Below are positions 27,880 to 52,323 of a stretch of 64,000 nucleotides of DNA, in pieces (position 1 is the first letter of the stretch; the number at the start of each line of letters is the position of its first letter). A model generated the notes under the pieces. That model was not told where the DNA came from, did not search any database, and saw only the letters and a list, made by a program, of their open reading frames with translations. Source of the DNA: a bacterium (GTDB taxonomy: Bacteria; Sysuimicrobiota; Sysuimicrobiia; Sysuimicrobiales; Segetimicrobiaceae); assembly GCA_035308905.1 (NCBI GenBank), contig DATGFS010000032.1, positions 1 to 64,000 of the forward strand. The letters run 5' to 3'. Made by a program: the position numbers and the translations under genes.

Positions 27880-28668
27880 ATGTCCACGATTTCCGTAAAC
27901 GGGACGACCCTTTATTACGACGCGGCGGGGCACGGCCTCCCCATCGTCTTCATTCATGGGATGTGCGGGAATGCCGATGTCTGGGCCGATCAGGTGGCCC
28001 GCCTCTCGCCGCGTTTTCGCTGCGTCACTTACGATCGGCGCGGACATACACGGAGCGCGCTCGGCCACATCGCCGCGCGGACGGTCGAGCTGCACGCCGA
28101 CGATACGGCCGCGCTGATCCAAGGATTAGCCCTGGCGCCGTGCCTCCTCGTCGGCTCGAGCGGCGGTGCCCGGGTTGGCCTCGATGTCGTGCGCCGGTAT
28201 CCGGAATTGCTCCGCGGCGCGGTGCTCTCCGAGCCCCCGGTTCTGGCACTGGATCCCGAGGGCGCCAAGGCGTTCATGAACGAGATCAAGCCGAACATCG
28301 AGCGCGCCGTCGCCGCGGGAGGCGCCGCGGCCGCCGTTGACGCGTTCTTCGAGGTCGTGTGCCCGGGCCTTTGGCGTACGCTACCGGAGGCGGCTCGCGA
28401 CCGCTACCGCGCCAATCAGATCGAGCTGTTCGGCGACCTTCAGATGCCTCCATATAAAGTCTCCAGGGAGGACCTGGCCCGTATTCAGTGCCCGTGCCTC
28501 GTCGTCAGCGGGAGTGAAAGTCATCCGGCGCTTCGGCGGGTTGCGCAGATCGTCACCGACGCCATCCCCGGCTGCCGCTCGGTCGAGCTCACCGGGTCGG
28601 GGCACGTCACCTACTACGAACGCCCCGCCGAGTTCGCGGCCGCGGTGCGGGCATTTGCCGATCGTTGA
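27880..28668 (+). CDS. alpha/beta-fold hydrolase
   Basis: A 262-residue hydrolase with oxyanion motif HGMCG (26-30), nucleophile elbow VGSSGGAR (Ser94) and catalytic His242 in GSGHVTYYE. The acid after strand 6 is probably the Glu in SGSESHP rather than Asp. The substrate cannot be read; ester, amide and formyl-amide hydrolases share this layout, the last including N-formylmaleamate deformylase. The chimeric remnant at 28695 follows closely. Confidence 0.85.
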   Translation: MSTISVNGTTLYYDAAGHGLPIVFIHGMCGNADVWADQVARLSPRFRCVTYDRRGHTRSALGHIAARTVELHADDTAALIQGLALAPCLLVGSSGGARVGLDVVRRYPELLRGAVLSEPPVLALDPEGAKAFMNEIKPNIERAVAAGGAAAAVDAFFEVVCPGLWRTLPEAARDRYRANQIELFGDLQMPPYKVSREDLARIQCPCLVVSGSESHPALRRVAQIVTDAIPGCRSVELTGSGHVTYYERPAEFAAAVRAFADR

Positions 28669-29788: not shown

Positions 29789-30093
29789 TCATGGGTTTGG
29801 CCTGTCTATGACGCTCTCGCCAACCCCCACTCATGTTGGAGGCCGCTCTGCGATCCTGAAACAAGAGGATCGGCGATTTTCCCCTCCGAACACTTCCTGA
29901 CCGTAGTCCACGGACGTTTCGCCGCGACCGCACATCCTGCCAACCGCGGCCACCGTCACAACGCTGTACGGAGTCGGGAGCCTATGACGCCGCAGTCTCG
30001 CGTTTCTGGGGCGGACCTCACGCGTCTGCTCCCGCTATCGTCCCGCGAGCTGCGCGCCGCTGGGGCGGCGGCCGGGTCCCGCGCCGCGCGCTG
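29789..30093. other. 305-bp spacer before the molybdenum hydroxylase operon
   Basis: This spacer must hold the promoter of the operon. A 36-codon frame (29984-30094, basic and Ala-rich) ends with TGA overlapping the ATG of the first large subunit, but it has no ribosome site. No clear -35/-10 pair or long dyad is recognised. Confidence 0.4.
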
Positions 30094-32487
30094 ATGGCCG
30101 CCCCGACGATCTCGTCCCCAGCCTACGCCGCCGTCGGCACGCGCCGGCCGCGGATCGACGCGGCCGCTTTTGCGCGGGGCGCCGCCCGGTACGCTACGGA
30201 CATGGCGGTGCCGGGCATGCTGCACTGCCGGCTGCTCTACGCGCAGCAGGCGCCGGCGCGGATCACCCGCGTCGACGTCGAGGCTGCCCGGCGCCTGCCG
30301 GGAGTGGAGGCGGTGGTCACGGCCGCCGACGCGCCGGCGATGCCGGCGACGGGCATGAGCATCGCCGCGCGTCATCTGTTCGCGCGCGACGACGTGCGAA
30401 CCGTCGCGGACGTGATCGCGGCGGTCGCCGCGGTCGACGACGAGACCGGGCGCCGCGCCGTCGAGTTGATCGAGGTCGAGTACGAAGATCTGCCCGGCGC
30501 CCACACGCTCGACGCGGCGTGCGACCCCTCGGCCCCGCTCGTCCATCCCGGCAAGGCCGAGTACGCCGGCGCGCAGTGGCTCAAGCGCTACCGGGTCGCG
30601 GAGCCGGGCAACGTCGCCACCCACTTCCGGCTCCGGAAGGGCGACGCCGCCGCCGCGCGGGCGCGCGCGCCCGTCGTGGTGGAGGGCCGGTTCCAGACGC
30701 AGCGCATGGAGCATTTTTCGATGGAGCCCCACGCCGCCGTCGTGAACTACGACCCCGCCACGCAGCGCGTCACGCTGTGGGCGTCGACCGGCAAGCCGTT
30801 CCGGACGATCATCCAGATGGGCGAACTGCTGCGCCTGCCGATGAACCGGGTCAACGCGGTGTACGTGCCGACCGGCGGCGACTTCGGCGGCAAAGGCGAG
30901 GTCACGATCGAGCCGTACTGCGCCGTCCTCTCGATGAAGACCGGCCGGCCGGTGAAGGGCGTGTACACGCGGGAGGAAGAGTTTTTCGCCGCGACCTGCA
31001 AGACGCCGTTCGACATCCGGATGGCCCTCGGGACGGACCGGGACGGACTCCTGCTCTTCAGCGAGGGCGACCTGCGGCTCGACACCGGCGCCTACAACTC
31101 GATGTCGGCGATGGTCTCCGCGTTCGCGTCGATCTTGTTCGAAGGTCCCTACGTCGTTCCGAACGTGTCCGTGGACGCGCGGTGCGTCTTCACGCACAAC
31201 GTGATGAGCGGGTCGTTTCGGGGGTTCGGCAGCCCGCAGGTCGCGTTCGCGCGCGAAGGGCTGCTCGACGAGGCCGCCGCGCGCCTCGGCCTCGACCCGA
31301 TGGAGCTCCGCCTCCGGAACGCCTGGCAGACCGGCGCGGTCACGGTGACCGGGCAGATCCTGCACGCCGCGCGCCACAGCGTGACCGTCCGCGACACGAT
31401 CGCGGCCGCCGCCGCCGCCGCCGGCTGGAAGGCGCGGCGGGCGGCCCGCGAGACCCCGGCGGTGCGTGAGGCCGCGGGCCCGCGAATCCGGCGGGGGATC
31501 GGGATGGCCACGGCGCACCACGCCCTCGGCGGCCCCGCGGTCATCGGCACGGACACGGCGACCGCCTTCGTCAAGGCAAATCCCGACGGGAGCGTGACGC
31601 TGCTGACCGGCGCGGCCGACGTCGGGCAGGGCATCGACACCGCGCTGAGCCAGCTCGTGGGCGAGGAGCTGCGGCTGCCGGCGGACCGCATCGCCATCGC
31701 GATGAAGGTCACCGACGGCGTGCCCGACGACCAGGGCGCCTCGGCCAGCCGTACCATGTACTCGGTCGGCAACGCGACGCGCGCCGCGGCGGTCAACCTC
31801 AAAGAGAAGCTGCTCGCGATCGCCGCGGAGATGCTGGAAGCGGACCGCCAGGATCTGGAATGGGGCCAGGCCGCGGTCACGGTCCGCGGGACGCCGGCGC
31901 GCGCGCTCACAATGACGGACGTCGTCCACTACTCGATGCGCCGCCGCGGCGAGCAGCCGATCGGGACGGGGGTGCACCACGGCCACGGGGTGCCGCTCGA
32001 CGAACGCGGCCAGGGCGAAGTGCAGAGCTTCGAGTATTCGACGCAGATCGCCGAAGTCGAAGTCGATTGCGACACCGGCGTGGTGCGGGTGCTGCGGCTC
32101 GTCAATGCCCAGGAGGTCGGCCGGGCCATCAACCCGCTCATCGTTGAAGGCCAGATCGAGGGCGGCATGGTGATGGGGCTCGGGTTCGCGCTCCTGGAAG
32201 AGGTCGTCTGCCGCGACGGGCAGGTGCTGAATCCCTACGCGTTCGACTACCGGGTGCCGCGCGCGGAAGACATGCCCGAGATCACGACGGTGCTTTTGGA
32301 GCACCGCGATCCGATCGGCCCCTACGGCGCGAAGGGCTGCGGGGAGATCTGCATGGATCCGACGGCCGCGGCAATCGCGAACGCGGTGGCCGACGCGATC
32401 GGGGCGCGGGTGATGTCGCTCCCGATCACGCCGGAGAAGGTGCTGCGGGCGATCCGCGAGCGTGTGCCGGACGGCCGGGCGGAGTAG
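30094..32487 (+). CDS. molybdenum hydroxylase large subunit (xanthine dehydrogenase family), copy 1
   Basis: The 797-residue subunit carries the Mo-cofactor site of the xanthine oxidase family: GGDFGGKGE (about residue 263), SGSFRGFGSPQVAF (about 372, the FRGFG loop with substrate Arg), GAADVGQGIDTALSQ (about 510, with the Gln that contacts Mo) and GAKGCGEICM (about 749, with the catalytic Glu). It should hydroxylate an N-heterocycle or aldehyde with water, passing electrons to the 2Fe-2S and FAD subunits encoded downstream. It is closely similar to the subunit at 36301. Confidence 0.9.
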   Translation: MAAPTISSPAYAAVGTRRPRIDAAAFARGAARYATDMAVPGMLHCRLLYAQQAPARITRVDVEAARRLPGVEAVVTAADAPAMPATGMSIAARHLFARDDVRTVADVIAAVAAVDDETGRRAVELIEVEYEDLPGAHTLDAACDPSAPLVHPGKAEYAGAQWLKRYRVAEPGNVATHFRLRKGDAAAARARAPVVVEGRFQTQRMEHFSMEPHAAVVNYDPATQRVTLWASTGKPFRTIIQMGELLRLPMNRVNAVYVPTGGDFGGKGEVTIEPYCAVLSMKTGRPVKGVYTREEEFFAATCKTPFDIRMALGTDRDGLLLFSEGDLRLDTGAYNSMSAMVSAFASILFEGPYVVPNVSVDARCVFTHNVMSGSFRGFGSPQVAFAREGLLDEAAARLGLDPMELRLRNAWQTGAVTVTGQILHAARHSVTVRDTIAAAAAAAGWKARRAARETPAVREAAGPRIRRGIGMATAHHALGGPAVIGTDTATAFVKANPDGSVTLLTGAADVGQGIDTALSQLVGEELRLPADRIAIAMKVTDGVPDDQGASASRTMYSVGNATRAAAVNLKEKLLAIAAEMLEADRQDLEWGQAAVTVRGTPARALTMTDVVHYSMRRRGEQPIGTGVHHGHGVPLDERGQGEVQSFEYSTQIAEVEVDCDTGVVRVLRLVNAQEVGRAINPLIVEGQIEGGMVMGLGFALLEEVVCRDGQVLNPYAFDYRVPRAEDMPEITTVLLEHRDPIGPYGAKGCGEICMDPTAAAIANAVADAIGARVMSLPITPEKVLRAIRERVPDGRAE

Positions 32488-32490
32488 GGG

Positions 32491-33786
32491 ATGGCGATCG
32501 GGGGGAGCCGCGAATCGATGACGGAACGGCAGGCGGCGGCGCCGGTCTCCGGCGCGGGCCCGGCCCGGCGGGCGGCCAACGCGACCGCGCTCGAGCGGCT
32601 GACCGGCGGCCATCCGTTTCTCGTCGACGTCCGGCCGGCGATCGAGGTGGTGCCGGGTATGCGTCCGGACCTCGTGCTGCATGCCGGTCCGCCGCTCGCG
32701 TGGGACGAGATGGTGCCGCCGATGCAGGCGGCCGTTGCGGGCGCCCTGGTGTACGGCGGGCGCTGCCGCACGCTGGACGAGGCGGCGGCGCTCGCGCGCG
32801 ACGGCCGCGTCCAGCTTGCGCCGGCCCACGATCACGGCATGGTGGGCCCCATGGCCGGCGTCGTCTCCGCGACGATGCCGGTCTTCGTCGTGCGCAACGA
32901 GACATACGGCAACGTCGCCTTCGCCACGATCAACGAAGGGCTCGGCCGCGTGCTCCGGTTTGGCGCAAACGACGACTCGGTCCTCACCCGGCTCGCCTGG
33001 ATCCGCGACGTGCTCGCGCCGTCGCTCGGGGCGGCGCTCCGGCGCAGCGGCCCGATCGACCTGCGCCAGATGATCGGAGAGGCGCTGCACCGGGGCGACG
33101 AAGCCCACAACCGTAACAAGGCGGGGACGGCGCTCTTCGTCCGGCACGTCGCGCCGCATCTCTGCCGCGCCCTTGCAGGCGACGTGGCGGCGCAGTGTCT
33201 GGAGTTCATCGGCGGCAACGACCACTTCTTCCTCAACCTGTCGATCGCGCACAGCAAGGCCGTCACCGACGCCGTCGGGACGGTCGCCGGGAGCAGTCTC
33301 GTCACCGCGATGGCCGGAAACGGCGTACGGTTCGGCCTGCGGGTCGCGGGTCTCGGCGCGGCGTGGATCACCGCGCCCCCCGATCCGCCGGTGGGACGGA
33401 TGTTCGAGGGGTTCTCGCAGAGCGACGGGGTGCCGCTGATGGGCGACTCCTACGTCTCCGAGGTGGCGGGCGTCGGGGCGTTTGCGCTGGCCGCGGCGCC
33501 GGCGATCGCCGGCTTCATCGGCGGGCGGGCCGGCGAGATGGTGGCGCACACGCAGCGGATGTACGGGATCACGGCCGGCGAGCATCCGGCGTTTACCATC
33601 CCCGCGCTCGATTTCCGCGGCACGCCGGTGGGGATCGATGTCGACCGCGTCGTCGCGACGGGCGTCAGGCCCATCCTCAACACCGGGATCGCCGGCCGGC
33701 GGCCGGGCGTCGGGCAGGTCGGCGCCGGCATCGCGTCGGCGCCGCTGGCGTGCTTCGTCGACGCCGCGGCGCGTCTGGCCCGATGA
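32491..33786 (+). CDS. DUF1116 protein (AllG/YlbE-like)
   Basis: The 431-residue protein matches DUF1116 throughout: AIEVVPGMRPDLVLHAGPPL, LAPAHDHGMVGPMAGVVSAT, a GGNDHFFLNLSIAHSKAVTD segment and GDSYVSEVAGVGAFALAAAP, ending TGIAGRRPGVGQVGAGIASA. In enterobacteria the DUF1116 protein AllG is a subunit of oxamate carbamoyltransferase with FdrA-type AllF and DUF2877 AllH. Neither partner gene is nearby. It lies three bases after the large subunit and 75 bp before the FAD subunit, so it belongs to this operon. ATG 32518 is an alternative start. Confidence 0.82.
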   Translation: MAIGGSRESMTERQAAAPVSGAGPARRAANATALERLTGGHPFLVDVRPAIEVVPGMRPDLVLHAGPPLAWDEMVPPMQAAVAGALVYGGRCRTLDEAAALARDGRVQLAPAHDHGMVGPMAGVVSATMPVFVVRNETYGNVAFATINEGLGRVLRFGANDDSVLTRLAWIRDVLAPSLGAALRRSGPIDLRQMIGEALHRGDEAHNRNKAGTALFVRHVAPHLCRALAGDVAAQCLEFIGGNDHFFLNLSIAHSKAVTDAVGTVAGSSLVTAMAGNGVRFGLRVAGLGAAWITAPPDPPVGRMFEGFSQSDGVPLMGDSYVSEVAGVGAFALAAAPAIAGFIGGRAGEMVAHTQRMYGITAGEHPAFTIPALDFRGTPVGIDVDRVVATGVRPILNTGIAGRRPGVGQVGAGIASAPLACFVDAAARLAR

Positions 33787-33861: not shown

Positions 33862-34752
33862 GTGCTGCAGCCGTTCCAGCTTCACGAGCCGACCACAGTG
33901 CCCGAGGCATCGGGCCTGCTGGCCCGACTCGGCGACGAAGGCCGCATCTACGCCGGCGGCACGGAACTGCTGCTGGCGATGAAGCAGGGGCTGCTGCGCT
34001 ACCGGCACCTGGTCAACATCAAACACCTCGGACTGGAGACGGTCGCGTTCGACGAGGGGGCCGGGCGGCTGCGTCTCGGCGCAACCGCCACCCACCGCGC
34101 GGTCGAGCGCTCGGCGGTCGTCGGCGGGCGCTACCCGATGCTGGCGTCGATGGAGCGGCACCTGGCGAACGTCCGGGTGCGCGCGGTCGGCACGGTGGGC
34201 GGCAACCTGTCCTTCGCCGAGCCGCATTCCGATCTCGCGACCGTGCTGCTGCTGTACAACGCGACGGTCACCGTCGGCGGCGCGGCCGGCCGGCGGACAA
34301 TCGGCGTCGCGGACCTGCTCCTGGACGCGTACACGACGGCGCTCGCGCCCGACGAGCTGCTGCTGGAGATCGAGGTGCCGGCGTTGCCCGCGGGGGCCGG
34401 CGCCGACTACCGCAAGTTCGCGTTCTTCGAGCGGCCGTCGGTGGGCGTCGGCGCGGTGGTGATCCCGTCGGCCGGCGGCGGCGGGATCGCGGAGGCCCGC
34501 GTGGCCGTCGGCTGCGTGGGCCCCGTCCCCCGGCGCGTCGCGGAGGCGGAAGTCGCGCTGGCCGGGGCGCCGCTGCGAGGCGCCGCGTTCGAGCGCGCGG
34601 TCGGGCAGGCCGCCGAGGCGGTGCGCCGCGCCTGCGACCCGGTGGACGATCTCTACGGCTCGGCCGGCTACAAACGGCATCTGGCCGGCGTGTTCGCGGA
34701 GCGCGCCCTGACCGCGGCCTGCGCCCACGCCGTTGCGGGAGGACAGGGATGA
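33862..34752 (+). CDS. molybdenum hydroxylase FAD subunit (CoxM-like)
   Basis: The 296-residue medium subunit has the FAD_binding_5 motifs: IYAGGTELLLAMKQGL (about 32-47), then VGTVGGNLSFAEPHSDLATV (about 110-130) and a CO_deh_flav_C domain with AVGCVGPVPRRVAEAE. It accepts electrons from the 2Fe-2S subunit. GTG 33862 follows GAGGAGG. The end overlaps the next start (ATGA). Confidence 0.9.
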   Translation: MLQPFQLHEPTTVPEASGLLARLGDEGRIYAGGTELLLAMKQGLLRYRHLVNIKHLGLETVAFDEGAGRLRLGATATHRAVERSAVVGGRYPMLASMERHLANVRVRAVGTVGGNLSFAEPHSDLATVLLLYNATVTVGGAAGRRTIGVADLLLDAYTTALAPDELLLEIEVPALPAGAGADYRKFAFFERPSVGVGAVVIPSAGGGGIAEARVAVGCVGPVPRRVAEAEVALAGAPLRGAAFERAVGQAAEAVRRACDPVDDLYGSAGYKRHLAGVFAERALTAACAHAVAGGQG

Positions 34753-35258
34753 TCCAGGAGGACCGCCGATCCGGCGCGGACGAGATGCCCGCGCAGACCG
34801 TGGCCATCGACGCCCAGATCAACGGCCGCCGCGTCCGCGCGGCGGTCCCCACGCACCGGACGCTGCTTGACTTTCTCCGCGAGGACCTGGCGCTGACGGC
34901 CGCCAAGCGGGCGTGCGACGTCCAGGTGTGCGGGGCGTGTACGGTCCTGGTCGACGGCCTGCCCGTCAGCGCCTGCACCTACCTGGCGTTCGAGATCAAC
35001 GGCAGGTCGGTCGAGACGTGCGAAGGCTTGGCGCAGCAGGGAGCGCTGCACCCCATCCAACAGGCCTTCGTGGACGCCGGCGCGCTGCAGTGCGGGTACT
35101 GCACGCCCGGGATGATCATGATCACCAAGGCGCTGCTCGCGGACCATCCGCGGCCGTCCGTCGACGAGATCAAGGAGTACCTGCACGGCAACATCTGCCG
35201 CTGTACCGGCTACAAGAAGATCCTCGACGCCGTGCTGGCGGCGGCCGAGGCGGAATAA
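34749..35258 (+). CDS. molybdenum hydroxylase 2Fe-2S subunit (CoxS-like)
   Basis: The 169-residue small subunit binds two clusters: the plant-type one through CDVQVCGACTVLVDGLPVSAC (about residues 56-78) and the second through LQCGYCTPGMIM and GNICRCTGYKKI. An N-terminal extension of about 20 residues precedes the ferredoxin fold. It is the only small subunit in the operon and probably serves both large subunits. Confidence 0.93.
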   Translation: MIQEDRRSGADEMPAQTVAIDAQINGRRVRAAVPTHRTLLDFLREDLALTAAKRACDVQVCGACTVLVDGLPVSACTYLAFEINGRSVETCEGLAQQGALHPIQQAFVDAGALQCGYCTPGMIMITKALLADHPRPSVDEIKEYLHGNICRCTGYKKILDAVLAAAEAE

Positions 35259-35280: not shown

Positions 35281-36288
35281 ATGGGGAGACACATGATGAC
35301 ACGCGGCGGGATCGCGATGATGCTTGCGGCAGTACTGGTGGCCGGCCTGGCGGGGACGGCTGTGCCGCAGACCAAGTATACGGTGCGGTTCGGCGTCGTC
35401 GGCGTCCCGTCGACGACGTACTACGCGCCGCTCGTGGTGGCCGAGCAGAAGGGCTTCTTCGCGCAGCAGGGGGTGCAGCTGCAGCGGACGGTTATCGGGC
35501 CGGACGACAACCTGGTGCGGGCCGCGGCCGGCGGCGCGCTCGACCTCGGCATCCCCGAGGCGAGCATCGCCATCAACGGCAACGCGCACGGCGCGCCGGT
35601 CAAAGTGATCGCGTGCCTCACCGACCGCTATCCGTACAATCTGTTCGCGCGCGCGGGCATCAAGTCGTACGCGGACCTCAAGGGCAAGACGATCTCCCAC
35701 TGGACGGTCGCGCCGGAAGCCAGCACGGCCCTGATCCGGCGGCTGATGGCCAACGGCGGGTTGAAAGAGGGCGAGTACAACCTCATCGCGGGCGGCGGCC
35801 TGCCGGCCCGGTACGCGGCGCTCTCCAAAGGCGCGGTCGACGCGGCGATTCTGACCGCGCCGTTCAACCTTCTCGCGCGGCGGGAGGGCATGACCGATCT
35901 CGGCGGCCTGTTTGATATTCCGGCCGTGTTCGCCTGCGTGATCGACAATACCAATTGGGCGGCGCGCAACCGCGACGCCACCGTGGCGACGCTGAAGGCC
36001 CTGATCATGGGGTTCCGCTACACCGCGAACTCCGCGCACAAGGACGAAGTGGTGAAGATGCTCGCGGATCTCGGGCACCTGGATCCGGCGGTGGTCGGTC
36101 AGACTTACGACCAGTTCTACCGGACTCAGACCTACCTCACGAGCTGGGATCTGGCGCCGAGCCCCCGGTCGATGCAGGGCGTCATCGACATCCTGGCCGG
36201 ACTCGGCCAGGTCCCGAAGGGGGCGGATCCGCAGCGGTACTTCGACCTCTCCTTTTTGAACGCGGCGCTGGCGCAGGTCGGCAAGTAA
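35281..36288 (+). CDS. NMT1/SsuA-type ABC solute-binding protein
   Basis: A 335-residue exported protein with a signal peptide (residues 1-33) and the NMT1 fold: VRFGVVGVPSTTYYAPLVVA, EQKGFFAQQGVQLQRTVIG, AAAGGALDLGIPEASIAING. Relatives bind taurine, alkanesulfonates, nitrate, riboflavin precursors, pyrimidines or aromatic acids. The cognate permease and ATPase are at 39770 and 40522 in the same operon, so the importer is complete. GGGGAGGCGAT precedes the ATG. Confidence 0.9.
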   Translation: MGRHMMTRGGIAMMLAAVLVAGLAGTAVPQTKYTVRFGVVGVPSTTYYAPLVVAEQKGFFAQQGVQLQRTVIGPDDNLVRAAAGGALDLGIPEASIAINGNAHGAPVKVIACLTDRYPYNLFARAGIKSYADLKGKTISHWTVAPEASTALIRRLMANGGLKEGEYNLIAGGGLPARYAALSKGAVDAAILTAPFNLLARREGMTDLGGLFDIPAVFACVIDNTNWAARNRDATVATLKALIMGFRYTANSAHKDEVVKMLADLGHLDPAVVGQTYDQFYRTQTYLTSWDLAPSPRSMQGVIDILAGLGQVPKGADPQRYFDLSFLNAALAQVGK

Positions 36289-36300
36289 GCGCCGCTTGAG

Positions 36301-38718
36301 GTGACCCGCTCCCAGGCCACTCACGCGCCGGTCGGTGCGCGGGTGCCGCGTCTCGACGCCGCGGCATTCGCCACCGGCCGGGCGTGCTACACGACCGACA
36401 TGGGCCTGCCCGGCATGCTGCACTGCCGGCTGCTCTACGCCGAGCAGGCACCGGCCCGCATCATCGCGCTGGATGTCTCGGACGCGCTGCGGCTGCCCGG
36501 CGTCGAAGCCGTGGTCACGGCCGCGGACGTGCCGTCGATGCCGATGGCCGGCACCAGCATCTCCGCGCGGCACCTCTTTGCCCGCGGCGAGGTCCGGTGC
36601 ATCGGCGACGTGATCGCGGCGGTGGCCGCCGTGGACGTGGAGACGGCGCAGCGGGCGGTGGACCTGATCCGCGTCGCCTACGACGAGCGGCCGGCGGCGT
36701 ACACGCTCGAGGCGGCCCTCGCGCCCGGCGCACCGCTCGTGCACCCCGACAAGGCCGGCTATCCGGTCGCGCCGTGGATGCGCCATTGGTTCGTCGAGGC
36801 GCCGGGCAACGAGTCGACCCATTTTCGTCTGGTGAAAGGGGACGTGGACGCGGCGCGCTCCCGGTCGCACGTCGTCGTGCGGGAGCGCTTCCGCACACAG
36901 CGCATCGAGCACTTTTCGATGGAGCCGCACGCCGCGGTCGCGGACTACGACCCCGCGGTTGGCCGCGTCACGGTGTGGTGCTCGACGGGGAAGCCCTTCC
37001 GCACCCAGGCGCAGCTCGCCGAACTGCTCGAGGTGCCGCTGAACCGCGTCAACATCGTTTTCGTGCCGACCGGCGGCGACTTCGGCGGCAAAGGCGAAGT
37101 GACCGTCGAGCCGTACTGCGCGGTGCTGGCGATGCGCACCGGCCGCCCGGTGAAGTGCGTGTACACCCGCGAGGAAGAGTTCTTCGCGGCCACCTGCAAG
37201 ACGCCGTTCGACATCGACCTGGCGCTGGGGTTCGACCGGGACGGGCTCTTGACGTTCCTGGACGGCGAGTTGTGGCTCGACACCGGCGCCTACAACTCGA
37301 TGTCCGCGATGATCTCGGTCTACGCGGCGATCCATCTCGAGGGCCCGTACGCCATACCGGCCGTGGCCGTCCATTCGCGGTGCGCCTTCACGCACAACAC
37401 GATGAGCGGCTCCTTCCGCGGCTTTGGGAACCCGCAGATCTCGTTCGCGCGCGAAGGCCTGCTCGACGAAGGCGCGGCGCGGCTGGGGCTCGACCCCGCG
37501 GAGATCCGCCTGCGCAACGCCTGGCGGCCCGGGTGGACGAACTGTACCGGCCAGGTGCTCGATCCGGCCCGGCACAGCGTGCACGTGCGCGAGGTGATCG
37601 CCGCGGCGGCCGAGGCCAGCGACTTCCGGTCGCGGTGGCGCGCCGGGCGCGAGGCATGGGCCGGCGGGCCCGCGCAGCCGGGGGATGGCGGGGCCTCGGC
37701 CGGGCGCCTCCGCGGGCTCGGCATGGCCGCCGCCCATCACGGGCTTGGCGGCCCGGCGCTGCACGGCACCGATACGGGCGCGGCGTTCCTCAAAGCGAAC
37801 CCGGACGGGACGGTCACCTTGATCACCGGGGCGGCCGACGTCGGGCAGGGCATCGATACCGCCTTGAGCCAGGTGGTCGCGGAAGCCCTCGGGCTGCCGC
37901 GCGACGCGATCGCGATCGCGCCGAAGACGACAGACGGCGTGCCCCAGGATCTCGGGGCGTCGGCCAGCCGCACGACATACTTCGTCGGCAACGCCGTGCG
38001 GGCGGCCTCGCTCGACCTGCGGCAGAAGTTGATCGCCGTCGCCGCGGAGATGCTGGAAGCCGATCCGCACGATCTCGACTGCGCCGACGGCAAGGTGTCC
38101 GTCCGCGGCGCGCCGGCGCGGGCGCTGGCGTTCGCGGACCTGGTGCACTACTCGATGCGCCGCCGGGGGGAGCAGCCCTACGGAGCCGGCGTGCAGCCCG
38201 GGTACACGACGCAGCTGAACGAGCGCGGCCAGGGCGACGCGAACAACACGTTCGAATACTCGTGCCAGGTGGCCGAGGTCGAGGTCGATCCCGGTACCGG
38301 AGAAGTCCGTGTGGTGCGCCTCTTGAACGCGCAGGACGTCGGCCGCGCCCTCAACCCGTTGATCGTCGAAGGGCAGATGGAGGGCGGCATGGTGATGGGG
38401 CTCGGCTTTGCCCTCCTCGAGGAAGTGGTCTGTGAGGACGGCCGCGTGCTGAATCCGTTCGCATTCGACTACCGGACGCCGCGCGCCGGCGACCTACCGG
38501 AGCTGGCGACCGTGCTGCTGGAGCACCACGATCCGCGCGGACCGTACGGCGCGAAGGGCGTCGGAGAGATCTGCATGAACCCGACCGCCGCAGCGATCGC
38601 GAACGCGGTGGCCGACGCGATCGGGATCCGCATCACGTCGCTGCCGATCACCCCCGAGAAGGTGCTGGCGGCGCTCGCGTCGCGGACCGCCGCCGGGGAG
38701 CCCGGGAAGGGAGACTAA
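36301..38718 (+). CDS. molybdenum hydroxylase large subunit, copy 2
   Basis: An 805-residue paralog of the subunit at 30094, colinear to the end. All active-site elements are present: GGDFGGKGEVTVEPYCAVL, SGSFRGFGNPQISFA, GAADVGQGIDTALSQ and GAKGVGEICM. It differs most near residues 445-465, where it has a longer Gly/Ala-rich loop (AGGPAQPGDGGASAG). It starts at GTG 36301, 12 bp after the binding-protein gene, and has no dedicated FAD or Fe-S partners, so the two large subunits likely share one electron-transfer module. Confidence 0.9.
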   Translation: MTRSQATHAPVGARVPRLDAAAFATGRACYTTDMGLPGMLHCRLLYAEQAPARIIALDVSDALRLPGVEAVVTAADVPSMPMAGTSISARHLFARGEVRCIGDVIAAVAAVDVETAQRAVDLIRVAYDERPAAYTLEAALAPGAPLVHPDKAGYPVAPWMRHWFVEAPGNESTHFRLVKGDVDAARSRSHVVVRERFRTQRIEHFSMEPHAAVADYDPAVGRVTVWCSTGKPFRTQAQLAELLEVPLNRVNIVFVPTGGDFGGKGEVTVEPYCAVLAMRTGRPVKCVYTREEEFFAATCKTPFDIDLALGFDRDGLLTFLDGELWLDTGAYNSMSAMISVYAAIHLEGPYAIPAVAVHSRCAFTHNTMSGSFRGFGNPQISFAREGLLDEGAARLGLDPAEIRLRNAWRPGWTNCTGQVLDPARHSVHVREVIAAAAEASDFRSRWRAGREAWAGGPAQPGDGGASAGRLRGLGMAAAHHGLGGPALHGTDTGAAFLKANPDGTVTLITGAADVGQGIDTALSQVVAEALGLPRDAIAIAPKTTDGVPQDLGASASRTTYFVGNAVRAASLDLRQKLIAVAAEMLEADPHDLDCADGKVSVRGAPARALAFADLVHYSMRRRGEQPYGAGVQPGYTTQLNERGQGDANNTFEYSCQVAEVEVDPGTGEVRVVRLLNAQDVGRALNPLIVEGQMEGGMVMGLGFALLEEVVCEDGRVLNPFAFDYRTPRAGDLPELATVLLEHHDPRGPYGAKGVGEICMNPTAAAIANAVADAIGIRITSLPITPEKVLAALASRTAAGEPGKGD

Positions 38719-38720
38719 GC

Positions 38721-39773
38721 ATGGTCCAGTTTCCGCTCTCGTCGCTCGTCGGCGCGGAAGCCGTGGTGCTGTTCCGCGAAGAGCTGCTGCTGTGCAACCT
38801 CCGGCCGTCGGAGAAGGCGCTGATCGTCTCCGACGCGTCCACCAACCCGCACTACGTGGCGGCCTGTTTTGGAGCCGTGCTGGAGATCGGCGCCGAGGTG
38901 GCGCAGGTGGTCGTGCCGTTCGTCGAGGGGACGCCGGAGATGGCGGCGCGCCGCCGGACGGAGAAGCTGGTCCCGTACGAGCACATCATTGACCTGATGC
39001 AGCGGATGGATTTCGTTGTCGACCTCACCTCGATCGGCTTCCTGCACTCCGAACGGCAGGTCGAGATGCTCTCGCACGGGACGCGCATGCTGCGCGTGCG
39101 CGAGCCGATCGAAGTGCTGCAGCGGCTGTTCCCGACGCGGGAAATCAAAGCCCGCGTAGAAGCGGGTGCACGCGTCATCGGCGCGAGCCGCCGGCTGCAG
39201 GTGACGACGCCGGCCGGCACCGACCTGTCGGTGGACCGGGGCGACCGCCCGGTGTTCATGCAGTACGGGTTCGCGGATCTGCCCGGCCGGTGGGATCACT
39301 GGCCGACCGCGCAGGTGGTCGTCGCACCGGCCGAGGACACGGCGCGGGGCACTCTCGTCCTCACGCCCGGCGATTTCATCGGCCACCGCTATGTGGGAAG
39401 CCCGGTGCGCTTCACGGTAGAGCACGGTCGGATCACCCGGATGGACGGCGAGGGACTCGACGTGGTGCTGCTGCGCGATCATTTCGCCCGTGGAGCGGGC
39501 ACCGACGCGGACCGCATCTCGCACATCGGGTGGGGATGTGATCCTCGCGCCCGCTACGACGCGCTCGACCGCTACGCGCACTATCACACGCGGGGCGCGG
39601 AGGTCCGGGGCGTCTACGGGGCGGTCACGCTGGCCTTCGGCTCGAATGCCGACCTCGGCGGGGGCAACCGCACGCAGCTTCACCTCGACCTTGGCTTCCG
39701 GGGCGCGCGGTTTCTCCTGGACGACCGCCCGGTGCTGGAGCGCGAGACGTTTCTCATCCCGGAGCTGCGGTGA
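38721..39773 (+). CDS. NicX-family (2,5-dihydroxypyridine 5,6-dioxygenase-like) protein
   Basis: The 350-residue protein is colinear with NicX: QYGFADLPGRWDHWP near residue 181, GTLVLTPGDFIG, RISHIGWGCDPRARYDAL and TQLHLDLGFRG. His268, His321 and Asp323 lie at the same spacing (53, then 2) as the Fe(II) ligands His265, His318 and Asp320 of Pseudomonas putida NicX. NicX opens 2,5-dihydroxypyridine to N-formylmaleamate. Homologs are often labelled aminopeptidases (M29). GGGAAGGGAG precedes the ATG, and its stop overlaps the permease start. Confidence 0.8.
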   Translation: MVQFPLSSLVGAEAVVLFREELLLCNLRPSEKALIVSDASTNPHYVAACFGAVLEIGAEVAQVVVPFVEGTPEMAARRRTEKLVPYEHIIDLMQRMDFVVDLTSIGFLHSERQVEMLSHGTRMLRVREPIEVLQRLFPTREIKARVEAGARVIGASRRLQVTTPAGTDLSVDRGDRPVFMQYGFADLPGRWDHWPTAQVVVAPAEDTARGTLVLTPGDFIGHRYVGSPVRFTVEHGRITRMDGEGLDVVLLRDHFARGAGTDADRISHIGWGCDPRARYDALDRYAHYHTRGAEVRGVYGAVTLAFGSNADLGGGNRTQLHLDLGFRGARFLLDDRPVLERETFLIPELR

Positions 39774-40546
39774 GCACTCGAAGCCTGCCGCTTCGATGGG
39801 GCCGCGTCGTCATCAGCGGTCTGATCGGCATCGCGGTGTGGCAGTTCTTCGCCGCGGCGGTCGTGCGGAATGCGCTCTTTCTACCCGCTCCGGGCGAGGT
39901 GCTGAAGGCGTCGATCGAAGTCGTCCGCAGCGGCGAGTTGCTCGATAATCTTAAGGTCAGCCTCTCATATTTCGCGGTCGGCTCCGCGCTTGGCTTCGCC
40001 GCCGGCGTCCTGCTGGGGGTGGTGCTCGGCGCCAGCCCGCGGGCCGCCGAGTACATCGATCCGTGGGTCTCCGCGGCCTACACGGCGCCGCTTGTCGCGC
40101 TGACGCCGCTGCTCATCATCTGGTTCGGGATCGGGCTGTGGTCGAAGACGATCATCATCGCGCTGCTCGTCGTTTTTCCGGTGACGATCGGGACGGTGGC
40201 CGGCATCCGCTCGACGGACCGCTCGCTGCTGGAAGTAGCGACGAGCATGGGCGCGGGCCGGCTCGACATCCTCCGGAAGGTCATGGTGCCGTGGTCGCTC
40301 TCGTTCATTCTCTCGGGCGCGCGAATCGGCGTGGGCCGCGGGGTGATCGGCATCTTCGTCGCGGAGCTGTTCGGCGGCGCGAGCAAAGGCGTCGGGCTGA
40401 TGATCCAGAACGCGGCGTCCGTGTTCAATACCCCGCTGCTCTTCGTCGGCATCATGGTCCTCGCCCTGATGGGGGTGGTCGTCACCAGTTTGATACGCCA
40501 GCTCGAGCGGAGGATGGCGCCGTGGCGCACGCAGTCGGTCGTGTAG
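39770..40546 (+). CDS. ABC transporter permease (SsuC/TauC-like)
   Basis: A 258-residue inner-membrane protein with six helices and the BPD_transp_1 EAA loop (EVATSMGAGRLDILRKVMVP). It begins at a GTG overlapping the NicX-like stop (GTGA) and overlaps the ATPase start. With the NMT1-type binding protein it forms an importer for a small organic molecule. Confidence 0.92.
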   Translation: MSTRSLPLRWGRVVISGLIGIAVWQFFAAAVVRNALFLPAPGEVLKASIEVVRSGELLDNLKVSLSYFAVGSALGFAAGVLLGVVLGASPRAAEYIDPWVSAAYTAPLVALTPLLIIWFGIGLWSKTIIIALLVVFPVTIGTVAGIRSTDRSLLEVATSMGAGRLDILRKVMVPWSLSFILSGARIGVGRGVIGIFVAELFGGASKGVGLMIQNAASVFNTPLLFVGIMVLALMGVVVTSLIRQLERRMAPWRTQSVV

Positions 40547-41334
40547 GGAAGTCGACGGAGCTCAGCGTCGACAACCTCACGGTCGCGTTCGAGCGCACGA
40601 GCGCGCCGCCGCTCCTTGTTCTCGACCACGTGAGCTTCGGCGTCGAGGAGGGGCAGTTCGTCGCCCTCGTCGGGCCGAGCGGCTGCGGCAAGACGACAGT
40701 GCTGCGCTGCATGGCGGGCCTGCAGACCCCGGCCGGCGGCCGCATCACGATCGGCGGGCGGCAGCTCACCGGGGTGGACCGGCGGGTGGCGATGGTGTTT
40801 CAAAGCGATTCGCTGTTCCCGTGGCGGACCGTGCTGGCGAACGTCGCCTTCGGCCTGGAGGTGCGGCGGATTCCGCGGGCGCACACCGCGGGCACCGTGC
40901 AGGATCTGGTGGACCTTGTGGGGCTGAGCGGGTTCGAGCGCGCCTACCCGCACCAGCTGTCCGGCGGGATGCGGCAGCGCGTGAACCTGGCCCGGGCGCT
41001 GGCGGTGGACCCCGAAGTCCTGCTGATGGACGAGCCGTTCAGCGCGCTCGACATGCTGACGCGGGAATCGATGCAGGCGGAGCTGCAGCGTATCTGGCTG
41101 CGCCGGAAGAAGACCGTGCTCTTCGTGACGCACCAGATCGAGGAGGCGGTGTTCCTCGCCGACCGCGTGCTGCTGATGTCCCGGCGGCCGGGCCGCCTGC
41201 GTGCGGACGTGGCCGTGCCGCTGCCGCGGCCGCGGGACGTCCACGCCCGGCATACGCCGGAGTTTCACGCGCTCGTCGACGGTCTGGCCGAAGCCCTCAG
41301 CACGGAGCTGATCGCCCAGGACGCGGAGCGGTAG
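40522..41334 (+). CDS. ABC transporter ATP-binding protein (SsuB/TauB-like)
   Basis: The 270-residue ATPase shows Walker A (GPSGCGKTT), Q-loop (VFQSDSLFPWRT), signature (LSGGMRQR), Walker B (LLMDEPFSALD) and H-loop (THQIEEA). GTG 40522 lies within the end of the permease gene with GGAGG upstream. It ends the operon; a cupin gene converges on it five bases later. Confidence 0.93.
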   Translation: MAHAVGRVGKSTELSVDNLTVAFERTSAPPLLVLDHVSFGVEEGQFVALVGPSGCGKTTVLRCMAGLQTPAGGRITIGGRQLTGVDRRVAMVFQSDSLFPWRTVLANVAFGLEVRRIPRAHTAGTVQDLVDLVGLSGFERAYPHQLSGGMRQRVNLARALAVDPEVLLMDEPFSALDMLTRESMQAELQRIWLRRKKTVLFVTHQIEEAVFLADRVLLMSRRPGRLRADVAVPLPRPRDVHARHTPEFHALVDGLAEALSTELIAQDAER

Positions 41335-41339
41335 CGCTC

Positions 41340-41798
41340 CTACCGCTTGATCGGCAGCTTCTGCTCGACCTTCATGTAGTCGTCGGACACCGCTTCCGTC
41401 TTGATGTCCGGGATCTTTCCGGGCTGTTCGCCCTGGTCGTACAGCCCCGCGGCGTTCGGATGCGTCCCGCCGAGGTACGTCGGCGCGAAGACCTCCAGGA
41501 TCGTGCAGGGCTTGTCCGAGGTGATCCATCCCCAGTGCACGGCGTTGCGCGGGATGCGGTAATAGTCGCCGGCCTTGACCAGGAAGAACTTGTCCTCGAC
41601 GAAGACCCAGATCTCGCCGTCGATGACGTAGTTCATCTGCTCCGTATCGTGCTTGTGCGGGTGCGAATGATATCCCCCGGGGCGCGTCGCCAGCATCAGG
41701 CAGCTCTCGTTCCCGTACACCATCTGGGTGGACATGTTGGTGTACTGCGTCGTGACGGTATCGTTCGCAATGTCCTCACGCCGGACGTACAACGGCAT
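41340..41798 (-). CDS. cupin-domain protein
   Basis: A 152-residue single cupin: HSHPHKHDTEQMNYVIDGE carries the metal-binding HxHx(4)E pattern and PRNAVHWG the second-motif His. It converges on the ABC operon. GGAGGTGGGAAG precedes the ATG at 41798. The product could be a dioxygenase, isomerase or binding protein; no substrate can be read. Confidence 0.82.
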   Translation of the reverse strand: MPLYVRREDIANDTVTTQYTNMSTQMVYGNESCLMLATRPGGYHSHPHKHDTEQMNYVIDGEIWVFVEDKFFLVKAGDYYRIPRNAVHWGWITSDKPCTILEVFAPTYLGGTHPNAAGLYDQGEQPGKIPDIKTEAVSDDYMKVEQKLPIKR

Positions 41799-41904
41799 CT
41801 TCCCACCTCCGGGGCGTTGGTGTTGCCGCGAGTGACGAGCGCGTGCGCGGAATCTTCGCCCGTAGACTTCGATGATCGGCCGCGCCGTTCCCTGCGCGAT
41901 GATC

Positions 41905-43026
41905 TTATGGCGCCGTCCGCCGCGGAAGATGCCAAAGCCGCTCGGCGTTGCCGTGAGCGAACGAGTCGGCGACATCGTCCGGTAGGTCGGCGAGGGCACC
42001 GCGCCAGAGTGCGATCTGGCCCAGATACTGCTGTCCCCAACTGGGGGCTACGACATTGTCGAAGGCAAGCAAGAAGCGGTCGGGGTGACCGACGAGAAGC
42101 GCCTTCCATTCCGCGGCCAACCGCCGGCCTGCAAACATATTGGTCCACGGCTGGTTGCCCCGATTGGCCGTGATCGGGTTGGAAGTCGATGCGATGAAAC
42201 ATACGTTCGGATGGGCTGCGATCAGACGCCCAACCTCCGACGCATCGAGTTGGCCCATGTGGATCAGAGCGAAGGGTTCGTCCGGATACTTGGCCAACAG
42301 CGCTTCGAATTTGGTCATGAAAACGGTGCGTTGCGCTGTGGGCAGCGCGGCGAACTCGATGTGAATGATGAATGGCCAGCGATTGCGAATCGCCAGATCG
42401 AGCGCAAAGAGAACGCGCGGGTCGTCAGGTTCGACGGACACCTCCGGGAAATTGACCCGTCCTCCCTCCGCCGCCTTAGCGGCATGGTACACCAGCACTT
42501 CCGCCATCGCGCCGTAGGCACGGGACCGCACCTGAGCATCGACGGTCTGACGATAACGGTCCGGCGGTGTGGTGGTCATATACCCCTTCGTGCGAACGGC
42601 CGCGATGATCTGGGCGGGGTTGCGGCGCGCGAGGTCGAGCACTTTATCCTGCGACGCGTTGCCCGTCGAAGAGAGAATGGTTTCCCGGACGCCGCCCTGA
42701 TTAAGCAGCGCCACGACGGTTTGGGAATCCACCTGACGATCGACTTGGCTATGGACGTCGATGAAGTACACTTCGCGAGCGTGGCTTTCGCCGGCGAACG
42801 TGCTGAGTGCCAGCAAGGTGACCAAGATTGTTGCACCGACCGTGCGAGTCCCCCGAACCGTTTGTCTTGCTGTCGCGACCGATGAACTGGAATTTCCGTT
42901 TCGGCTTTTCGACTTGTTGTCAGCGCACACCTGATTCAACCAGGTTTCCCCCACCCCGGCTCCAGACGAGCCCGCTCTTGAAGATTGATGTCTTGCGGGG
43001 GTTTCAATTTTGGCCGAAATTTCCAT
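41905..43026 (-). CDS. exported amidohydrolase-2-like protein with altered metal motif
   Basis: The protein has a TIM-barrel amidohydrolase layout: YFIDVHSQVDRQVDSQT (first strand), PFIIHIEFAALP, FALIHMGQLDASEVGRL and RFLLAFDNVVAP. Active members begin DxHxH; here it is Asp-Val-His-Ser-Gln, so one metal-ligand His is lost, though later His and Asp are kept. A hydrophobic signal (ATILVTLLALSTFAGESHA) lies about 60 residues in, so a start at GTG 42930 is likelier than ATG 43026. Base composition is less GC-rich than its neighbours, which may mark transfer. Confidence 0.65.
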   Translation of the reverse strand: MEISAKIETPARHQSSRAGSSGAGVGETWLNQVCADNKSKSRNGNSSSSVATARQTVRGTRTVGATILVTLLALSTFAGESHAREVYFIDVHSQVDRQVDSQTVVALLNQGGVRETILSSTGNASQDKVLDLARRNPAQIIAAVRTKGYMTTTPPDRYRQTVDAQVRSRAYGAMAEVLVYHAAKAAEGGRVNFPEVSVEPDDPRVLFALDLAIRNRWPFIIHIEFAALPTAQRTVFMTKFEALLAKYPDEPFALIHMGQLDASEVGRLIAAHPNVCFIASTSNPITANRGNQPWTNMFAGRRLAAEWKALLVGHPDRFLLAFDNVVAPSWGQQYLGQIALWRGALADLPDDVADSFAHGNAERLWHLPRRTAP

Positions 43027-50976: not shown

Positions 50977-52323
50977 GTGAGAACCTGGGCTCCGGTTTCG
51001 CTCATCGTCGCGTTCATCCTTGTTGCGACGGCGCCCGCGACCTATTCCGGGTTTGTCCCGAGGCCCGAACGCCCGCGGGTGCCGGCCGCGGCGGCGCCGG
51101 AGTCGCTGGACGCCCCGTGGGTGTACATGCGCTCCACCGGCGCGCGCGGGGACGGTGTCACCGATGATACCGCCGCCATTCAGGCCGCGTTGACCCAGGC
51201 GTCCTCCGCCGGGCGCCCGGTGTTTTGCCGGTCGGGCACGTACCTCGTGTCGGCCACCCTGACGCTCGGAACAGACTTCGTCGGGTCGCCGTCGGCGGGG
51301 CGGGCGGCGTGCGTGATCAAATTCGTGGGACGCGGTCCGGCCGTGCTGGTGACGGCGAACCCGGTGCAGGTGCAGAATCTCGTCCTGGACCTGACTCAGG
51401 ACACAAATACCGAAACGGGCGGGCTGCTGCTGCCGGGCGCCTGCGTCCGGTGTACGTTCTCCTCGATCACGGTGAACGGCCCCCCGAACGGCGTGACCCC
51501 GTATCTCAACTACGGCATCGTGCTGCGCGGCGGCGGAGCGGAAGACCGGCTCACGAACATTTCGACGAAATTCGCGACATCGGCCATCATCGCGGGGATC
51601 GGCGGCAACCTCTTCTATCAGAGCACGCTCGACAATATCTTCGCGCACAACTGCGGCCAGCTGACCGGCCGCGCCTGTCTGCAGATCACCGGCGCCGTCG
51701 ACACGGTGATGAACTCCGGGATCGGCGGCGGCGGCTTTCCGGGGGCGCCGACGCGGGTCGCCGTGCAGATCTCGGGGTCCGACGCCGAGGCCATCGATAT
51801 TATTGCCACCGAATTGATCGCGAACGCGCCGCACGGAACGGCGGTGGTCATCACCCGGCCCGCCCATGACGTGAGCGTCGTCACGCTGATCGACGTGCGC
51901 CTGCCGGTTCCCGCCAGACTGGCCTCGGACGTCGTCATCCCTCCCCGCATCACGCGCATCGCGACGCAGGAGAGCGGCGCCGGCCCGGTCGGATTCATCA
52001 GCGCGGCCGCCCCGATCGCGGCGTTCATGCCGGAATGGGGCTCGGGCATCACGCTCGACGCCTGCACCTGCACGGCCGTCGCCGGCACGGTGGCGTTCAC
52101 GACCGGCGCGACGGCTCCCGGCGGCGCGGCGCCGTTCGGCACGATCCGGTTCCGGCGCGCGTACCCGGTGCCCCCGATCGTCATCCTGAGCTGGAACTCC
52201 GATTCCGCCGCGAGGGCGGGCGTGTACGTGGACTCCACGTCGGTCAAGGGGGCCCGGCTCCGCTCGTCGCAGCTCCGGGCCGAGACGCGGTATGTCCTGA
52301 GCTACCAAGTCATCGAACGGTAG
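50977..52323 (+). CDS. exported pectate-lyase-3-like right-handed beta-helix protein
   Basis: The 448-residue product has a signal peptide (residues 1-24) and the pectate_lyase_3 start STGARGDGVTDDTAAIQAAL, followed by short beta-helix coils (VQVQNLVLDLTQDTN, NISTKFATSAIIAGIGGN). The last 110 residues are a separate beta domain with several Cys (DACTCTAVAG). Polysaccharide binding or cleavage is likely but catalytic residues are not identified. GGGGAGG precedes GTG 50977. Its 3' end overlaps the converging molybdoenzyme gene by 14 bp. Confidence 0.75.
   Translation: MRTWAPVSLIVAFILVATAPATYSGFVPRPERPRVPAAAAPESLDAPWVYMRSTGARGDGVTDDTAAIQAALTQASSAGRPVFCRSGTYLVSATLTLGTDFVGSPSAGRAACVIKFVGRGPAVLVTANPVQVQNLVLDLTQDTNTETGGLLLPGACVRCTFSSITVNGPPNGVTPYLNYGIVLRGGGAEDRLTNISTKFATSAIIAGIGGNLFYQSTLDNIFAHNCGQLTGRACLQITGAVDTVMNSGIGGGGFPGAPTRVAVQISGSDAEAIDIIATELIANAPHGTAVVITRPAHDVSVVTLIDVRLPVPARLASDVVIPPRITRIATQESGAGPVGFISAAAPIAAFMPEWGSGITLDACTCTAVAGTVAFTTGATAPGGAAPFGTIRFRRAYPVPPIVILSWNSDSAARAGVYVDSTSVKGARLRSSQLRAETRYVLSYQVIER

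Follow-up and report, generated by a model that had tools for sequence, protein, structure and literature searches.

Between the genes for the large and medium subunits of a molybdenum (Mo) hydroxylase, the 64,000-nucleotide stretch of Segetimicrobiaceae DNA analysed here (the window) carries a gene for AllG (DUF1116), one of the three proteins that jointly catalyse the final reaction of allantoin degradation, in an operon whose scanned genes include neither FdrA nor DUF2877 (AllH). With a confidence that falls somewhat short of even, we read this protein from its sequence as an FdrA-independent enzyme that would act on a ring fragment of the ureide or imide type, and not as a subunit of oxamate carbamoyltransferase. 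The computed evidence comprises its family and fold, the structure and conservation of its operon, a clade without FdrA or AllH, residues changed in that clade, and a homologue of a ring-cleavage enzyme. If the reading is true, a partnerless AllG clade with three changed residues would make the question of the catalytic subunit of AllFGH testable with one purified protein. The operon, for its part, suggests a pathway for an N-heterocycle that combines two large subunits of Mo hydroxylase with a ring dioxygenase departing from NicX in its substrate residues. Among titles, abstracts and passages of the open-access literature, no report of an FdrA-independent DUF1116 protein was found.

The gene (32491-33786, + strand) is an intact open reading frame of 431 amino acids, with coding-type GC by codon position (0.75/0.54/0.92); an antisense frame of 1209 amino acids at 29956-33585 was dismissed on codon-position GC as a GC-rich artefact. 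Its product scores 273 bits with PF06545 (AllG), whose cut-off is 27, over the whole profile (1-215), which bears out the preliminary description of a DUF1116 gene lodged between Mo-hydroxylase subunits. A PDB search shows it to be related over its full length to the solved protein 3clq (4.9e-109), and it is 43% identical to Escherichia coli AllG. An AlphaFold2 model built from 36 AllG sequences has a mean pLDDT of 93 and, in Foldseek, matches 3clq with a TM score of 0.93-0.95 at 44% identity; as 3clq was the sole match to the model in the PDB, the fold gives no hint at the reaction. Residues 1-20 are disordered and unaligned, so the in-frame ATG at 32518 may be the likelier start.

The surrounding operon, tightly packed from 30094 to approximately 41334, its genes 2-75 nt apart or overlapping by 4 nt, reads CoxL1-AllG-CoxM-CoxS-SBP-CoxL2-NicX-permease-ATPase, with a cupin gene next to it on the opposite strand. 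AllG starts 3 nt after CoxL1 (30094-32487, +; 797 aa) and ends 75 nt before the FAD-binding medium subunit CoxM (33862-34752, +; PF00941, PF03450), which is followed by the [2Fe-2S] small subunit CoxS (34749-35258, +; PF01799, PF00111). Then come an ABC substrate-binding protein of the NMT1/THI5/SsuA type (35281-36288, +; PF09084, with weak similarity to THI5 structures at 2e-8) and a second large subunit, CoxL2 (36301-38718, +; 805 aa). Beyond the NicX-like gene lie an SsuC/TauC-type permease (39770-40546, +; PF00528, NCBIfam), a transporter ATPase (40570-41334, +, start approximate; PF00005) and the small cupin protein (41340-41999, -; PF07883), which is conserved near the operon in five genomes. 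The two large subunits, both with PF01315, PF02738 and PF20256, are 69% identical, and in each of them the FRGFG motif and the catalytic Glu are conserved (GCGE in CoxL1, GVGE in CoxL2); with the FAD and 2Fe-2S subunits, they place the operon's hydroxylase in the xanthine dehydrogenase family. None of the named NCBIfam Mo hydroxylase equivalogs was reached, the best being 4-hydroxybenzoyl-CoA reductase alpha at 519-545 bits against a cut-off of 994.55, and the nearest solved relatives of CoxL2 are 4-hydroxybenzoyl-CoA reductase and quinoline 2-oxidoreductase. Scans for promoters and terminators gave counts near those of shuffled sequence. Other Mo genes in the window are a CoxL-type gene (52310-54652, -) and a molybdopterin oxidoreductase (PF00384; 23981-26380, +), and the genome holds 14 MoCoBD_2 matches.

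The gene at 38721-39773 (+), not listed in the preliminary description, encodes a protein of 350 amino acids that reached no Pfam family at cut-off; its identity came from a phmmer search of the PDB, in which it matched NicX (7cn3) at 9.4e-48. In Pseudomonas putida NicX, iron is bound by H265, S302, H318 and D320 and substrate is contacted by E177 and H189; alanine mutants of all four iron ligands were completely inactive, and E177A kept 2.7% (PMC7910607). The operon protein retains H105, H189, H265, H318 and D320, and with them a His/His/Asp iron site, while E177 has become Q and S302 has become A in all five operon homologues (that of the window and four others); a NicX homologue in another genome (G042, L138) retains both. 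Judged by these changed residues, the substrate of the operon enzyme most likely differs from that of NicX.

The same replacements weigh on a different account of the operon, in which a hydroxypyridine is broken down via 2,5-dihydroxypyridine and AllG replaces NicD or NicF as an N-formylmaleamate deformylase or amidase. This would explain a NicX homologue in an operon whose annotated genes include nothing NicD- or NicF-like, the alpha/beta hydrolase at 27880-28668 lying outside it beyond an opposite-strand gene. We nonetheless consider it unlikely, because Glu177 and Ser302, replaced in every operon homologue, are residues whose alanine mutants abolish or nearly abolish NicX activity (PMC7910607), and because relatives possess the operon without AllG. 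The alpha/beta hydrolase was itself considered as a NicD-like deformylase and rejected, its best solved matches being mostly esterases and haloperoxidases; 3kxp, an alpha-(N-acetylaminomethylene)succinic acid hydrolase, is among its matches at 4e-13, and no match to it was found in the region fetched from a second species of the genus (L056).

How the operon and its AllG are distributed was surveyed in 43 genomes of the order, to which class- and phylum-level searches added none. AllG occurs in 38 of the 43, FdrA over cut-off in 34 and AllH in 35; FdrA is nearby at 35 of 60 AllG loci and not at the other 25, some of these absences being uninformative owing to contig ends. A Cox gene lies within 9 kb at 13 of the 60 loci, and the neighbourhood survey suggested in the preliminary description thus finds proximity of AllG to Mo hydroxylase genes not unusual; the pairing with CoxL was rejected as a surprise in itself. 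The window operon recurs whole in the second species of the genus (G023, L056), with gene order kept and identities of 81-93%. Three further genomes (G033, G026 and G027) have the same transporter, CoxL/M/S, NicX-like and cupin genes with one CoxL and no AllG, and in G033 and G026 the NicX-like gene sits between CoxL and CoxM, the slot that AllG occupies in the window. The operon therefore does not strictly need AllG, which may, along with the additional CoxL, open the pathway to a further substrate. An AllG 77% identical to that of the window does occur in G027, in a separate operon with CoxM, CoxS, a TPP enzyme, transporters and a hydantoinase A/B pair whose best score, below cut-off, was to caprolactamase subunits. 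The CoxL of that operon shares 57-61% identity with CoxL proteins of the window type, whereas two others that were compared reach 31-37%, and the AllG clade thus travels with this hydroxylase subfamily alongside two kinds of ring opener.

Such an association might also arise if AllG served the Mo hydroxylase in assembly or in some other non-catalytic way, or if its gene were a passenger caught between CoxL and CoxM. Its location between large- and medium-subunit genes, the presence of CoxL/M/S of one subfamily in the G027 operon too, and the lack of AllG in the NicX operon of relatives all agree with this idea; the retention of most family-invariant residues in the window protein, and the several genes that separate AllG from CoxL/M/S in G027, argue against it, and we regard it as improbable.

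The partners of AllG had been described as missing, which holds for the operon genes scanned but not for the genome (4.0 Mb, 97% complete), where two AllG, one FdrA over cut-off and one AllH were found. FdrA (493 bits) and AllH (91 bits) lie on another contig, C48, beside the second AllG (320 bits): FdrA and DUF2877 are lacking from the operon, not from the genome, and the C48 pair goes with its own AllG. The preliminary description had held that its idea would fall if both genes were found elsewhere in the genome and worked with this protein; both are indeed present, but they already have an AllG of their own beside them, and neither turned up in the sister genomes of the window clade. The C48 locus (L004, 86000-105900) is arranged as FdrA-AllG-cyclase-CoA-transferase III, AllH and CoxS/CoxM/CoxL being encoded on the opposite strand, and comparable FdrA-AllG sets that include cyclase and Cox genes appear in Elusimicrobia and Clostridia MAGs (among L005-L023). 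No carbamate kinase over cut-off was found in the genome, so carbamoyl phosphate would need another use; hydrolysis, or the consumption of carbamoyl phosphate in biosynthesis, fits this better than a gain of ATP.

In a tree of 39 AllG sequences, the window protein falls in a clade of seven (window, L056, L057, L016, L015, L022 and L024; support 99/96), none of which has FdrA nearby. The clade takes in a Phyllobacteriaceae MAG (L016) and clostridial-type AllG (L015, L022 and L024), and the genomes of these four, whose completeness is not stated, yielded no FdrA over cut-off and no AllH match; one weak FdrA match, covering positions 116-288 only, was seen in G044. The gene neighbourhoods in these four genomes point to no particular substrate. 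Since no genes for the partners turned up in the genomes that hold the other members of the branch, the protein probably performs a related job alone. Window AllG keeps 84 of the 97 positions that are fixed in both FdrA-linked and purine-type AllG. Three changes stand out: M201, R276 and D316, invariant in FdrA-linked (53/53) and purine-type (12/12) AllG and present in both E. coli AllG proteins, have been replaced throughout the seven-member clade, M201 by R, R276 by G/T and D316 by L/T/A (R201, G276 and L316 in the window protein). These positions adjoin the invariant stretches G202-D203-E204, N277-G278 and G318-D319-S320, and D203, E204, H206, R208, N277, D319 and S320 are retained in the clade. 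At the Phyllobacteriaceae locus (L016:241-4420), AllG lies directly upstream of genes encoding malonyl-CoA decarboxylase and a ligase of the AMP-binding type; ureidomalonate has one CH2 more than oxalurate. A further divergent branch (L060-L064) has AllG by ABC transporter genes of the SBP_bac_5 or Bmp type, with R156, N148 and R167 altered and no adjacent FdrA.

The purine-type AllG without FdrA form a clade of their own, separate from that of the window, and their loci together hold genes for 8-oxoguanine deaminase, urate oxidase, allantoinase, an allantoate amidohydrolase-type enzyme and PucG-type proteins. PucG forms oxalurate, the substrate of AllFGH. At six loci (L058, L065, L066, L068, L108 and L111), a PucG-type aminotransferase accompanies AllG while FdrA and AllH are not adjacent, which makes these clusters candidates for an oxalurate step that draws on FdrA in trans. 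Purine-type AllG keep M, R and D and most of their genomes have FdrA, and use of FdrA in trans may therefore occur. By the same token, window AllG could be an alternative subunit that joins the C48 FdrA and AllH in a carbamoyltransferase with a different substrate: both partners exist in the genome, the known activity takes three genes (PMC11326118), and the purine-type proteins likewise lack FdrA in cis. In E. coli, any single gene of the three, AllG included, gave no oxamate, while AllG+AllH gave 16% and AllF+AllG 7% of the wild-type level (PMC11326118), which also speaks against an AllG that acts alone. The C48 FdrA, however, already has an AllG in cis, R276 and D316, kept by all FdrA-type and purine-type AllG, are gone from the window clade, and its sister genomes show no FdrA or AllH; G023, which is 96% complete and has the same operon, likewise gave no AllH match. 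A trans-acting subunit therefore seems to us rather unlikely.

On the favoured reading, in which AllG dispenses with FdrA, the NMT1-type ABC transporter would take up an N-heteroaromatic compound, and the two large subunits of the Mo hydroxylase, served by a single CoxM and a single CoxS, would hydroxylate it. The NicX-like non-haem iron dioxygenase would then open the ring oxidatively, and AllG would act downstream, cleaving an N-acyl-urea or imide fragment by phosphorolysis or hydrolysis without FdrA and AllH. Catalysis by AllG alone, a ureide or imide substrate and the order of these steps are what we infer from sequence and gene context. A more specific and hitherto undescribed oxidative route through a pyrimidine-type ring has a slim chance of being correct: the Mo hydroxylases would produce 5-hydroxy-2,4-dioxopyrimidine, the NicX-like enzyme would split it between C5 and C6 to give N-formyl-oxalurate, and single-subunit AllG would cleave the acyl-urea, and would thereby count as a member of the AllFGH carbamoyltransferase family that works without FdrA. 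Bond mapping indicates that NicX-type cleavage of 5-hydroxyuracil would yield N-formyl oxalurate. The earlier suggestion that AllG might help to process ring fragments, or point to a substrate that yields ureide or carbamoyl groups, thus appears partly supported, by the NicX-type gene, the hydantoinase A/B pair of G027 and the ureide contexts in which AllG occurs (PucG, allantoinase and ring-opening amidohydrolase).

AllFGH was reportedly assigned only in 2024, and is said to be the only transcarbamylase needing three genes. With the AllG (YlbE) of this E. coli oxamic transcarbamylase, the window protein shares its Pfam family, its modelled fold and most invariant residues; it differs at Met201, Arg276, Asp316 and His402, has no FdrA or DUF2877 in its operon, and is set among Mo hydroxylase and ring dioxygenase genes instead of allantoin genes. 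NicX, the 2,5-dihydroxypyridine 5,6-dioxygenase of P. putida, aligns nearly end to end with the operon's 350-residue protein, but the operon homologues carry Q177 and A302 in place of E177 and S302, and the dioxygenase homologue is the only nic gene found in the window operon. Closer at hand, the purine-cluster AllG of the same order (L058, L065, L068, L108 and others) are likewise without adjacent FdrA, and several lie near Mo hydroxylase genes; unlike the window protein, they keep the FdrA-type residues, neighbour PucG, urate oxidase and allantoinase, and form a separate clade. AllG-family matches were also found in 169 plasmid records, and on enterobacterial plasmids DUF2877-FdrA-DUF1116-ArcC adjoins a gene for a ring-opening amidohydrolase (in the neighbourhood of one record); the cluster of one such plasmid (L158, NZ_CP040892) also includes a nucleobase symporter, possibly marking a barbiturate or cyanurate route. 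These plasmid clusters place an AllG-family protein beside an opener of cyclic ureide rings but, unlike the window operon, they encode all three subunits together with a carbamate kinase.
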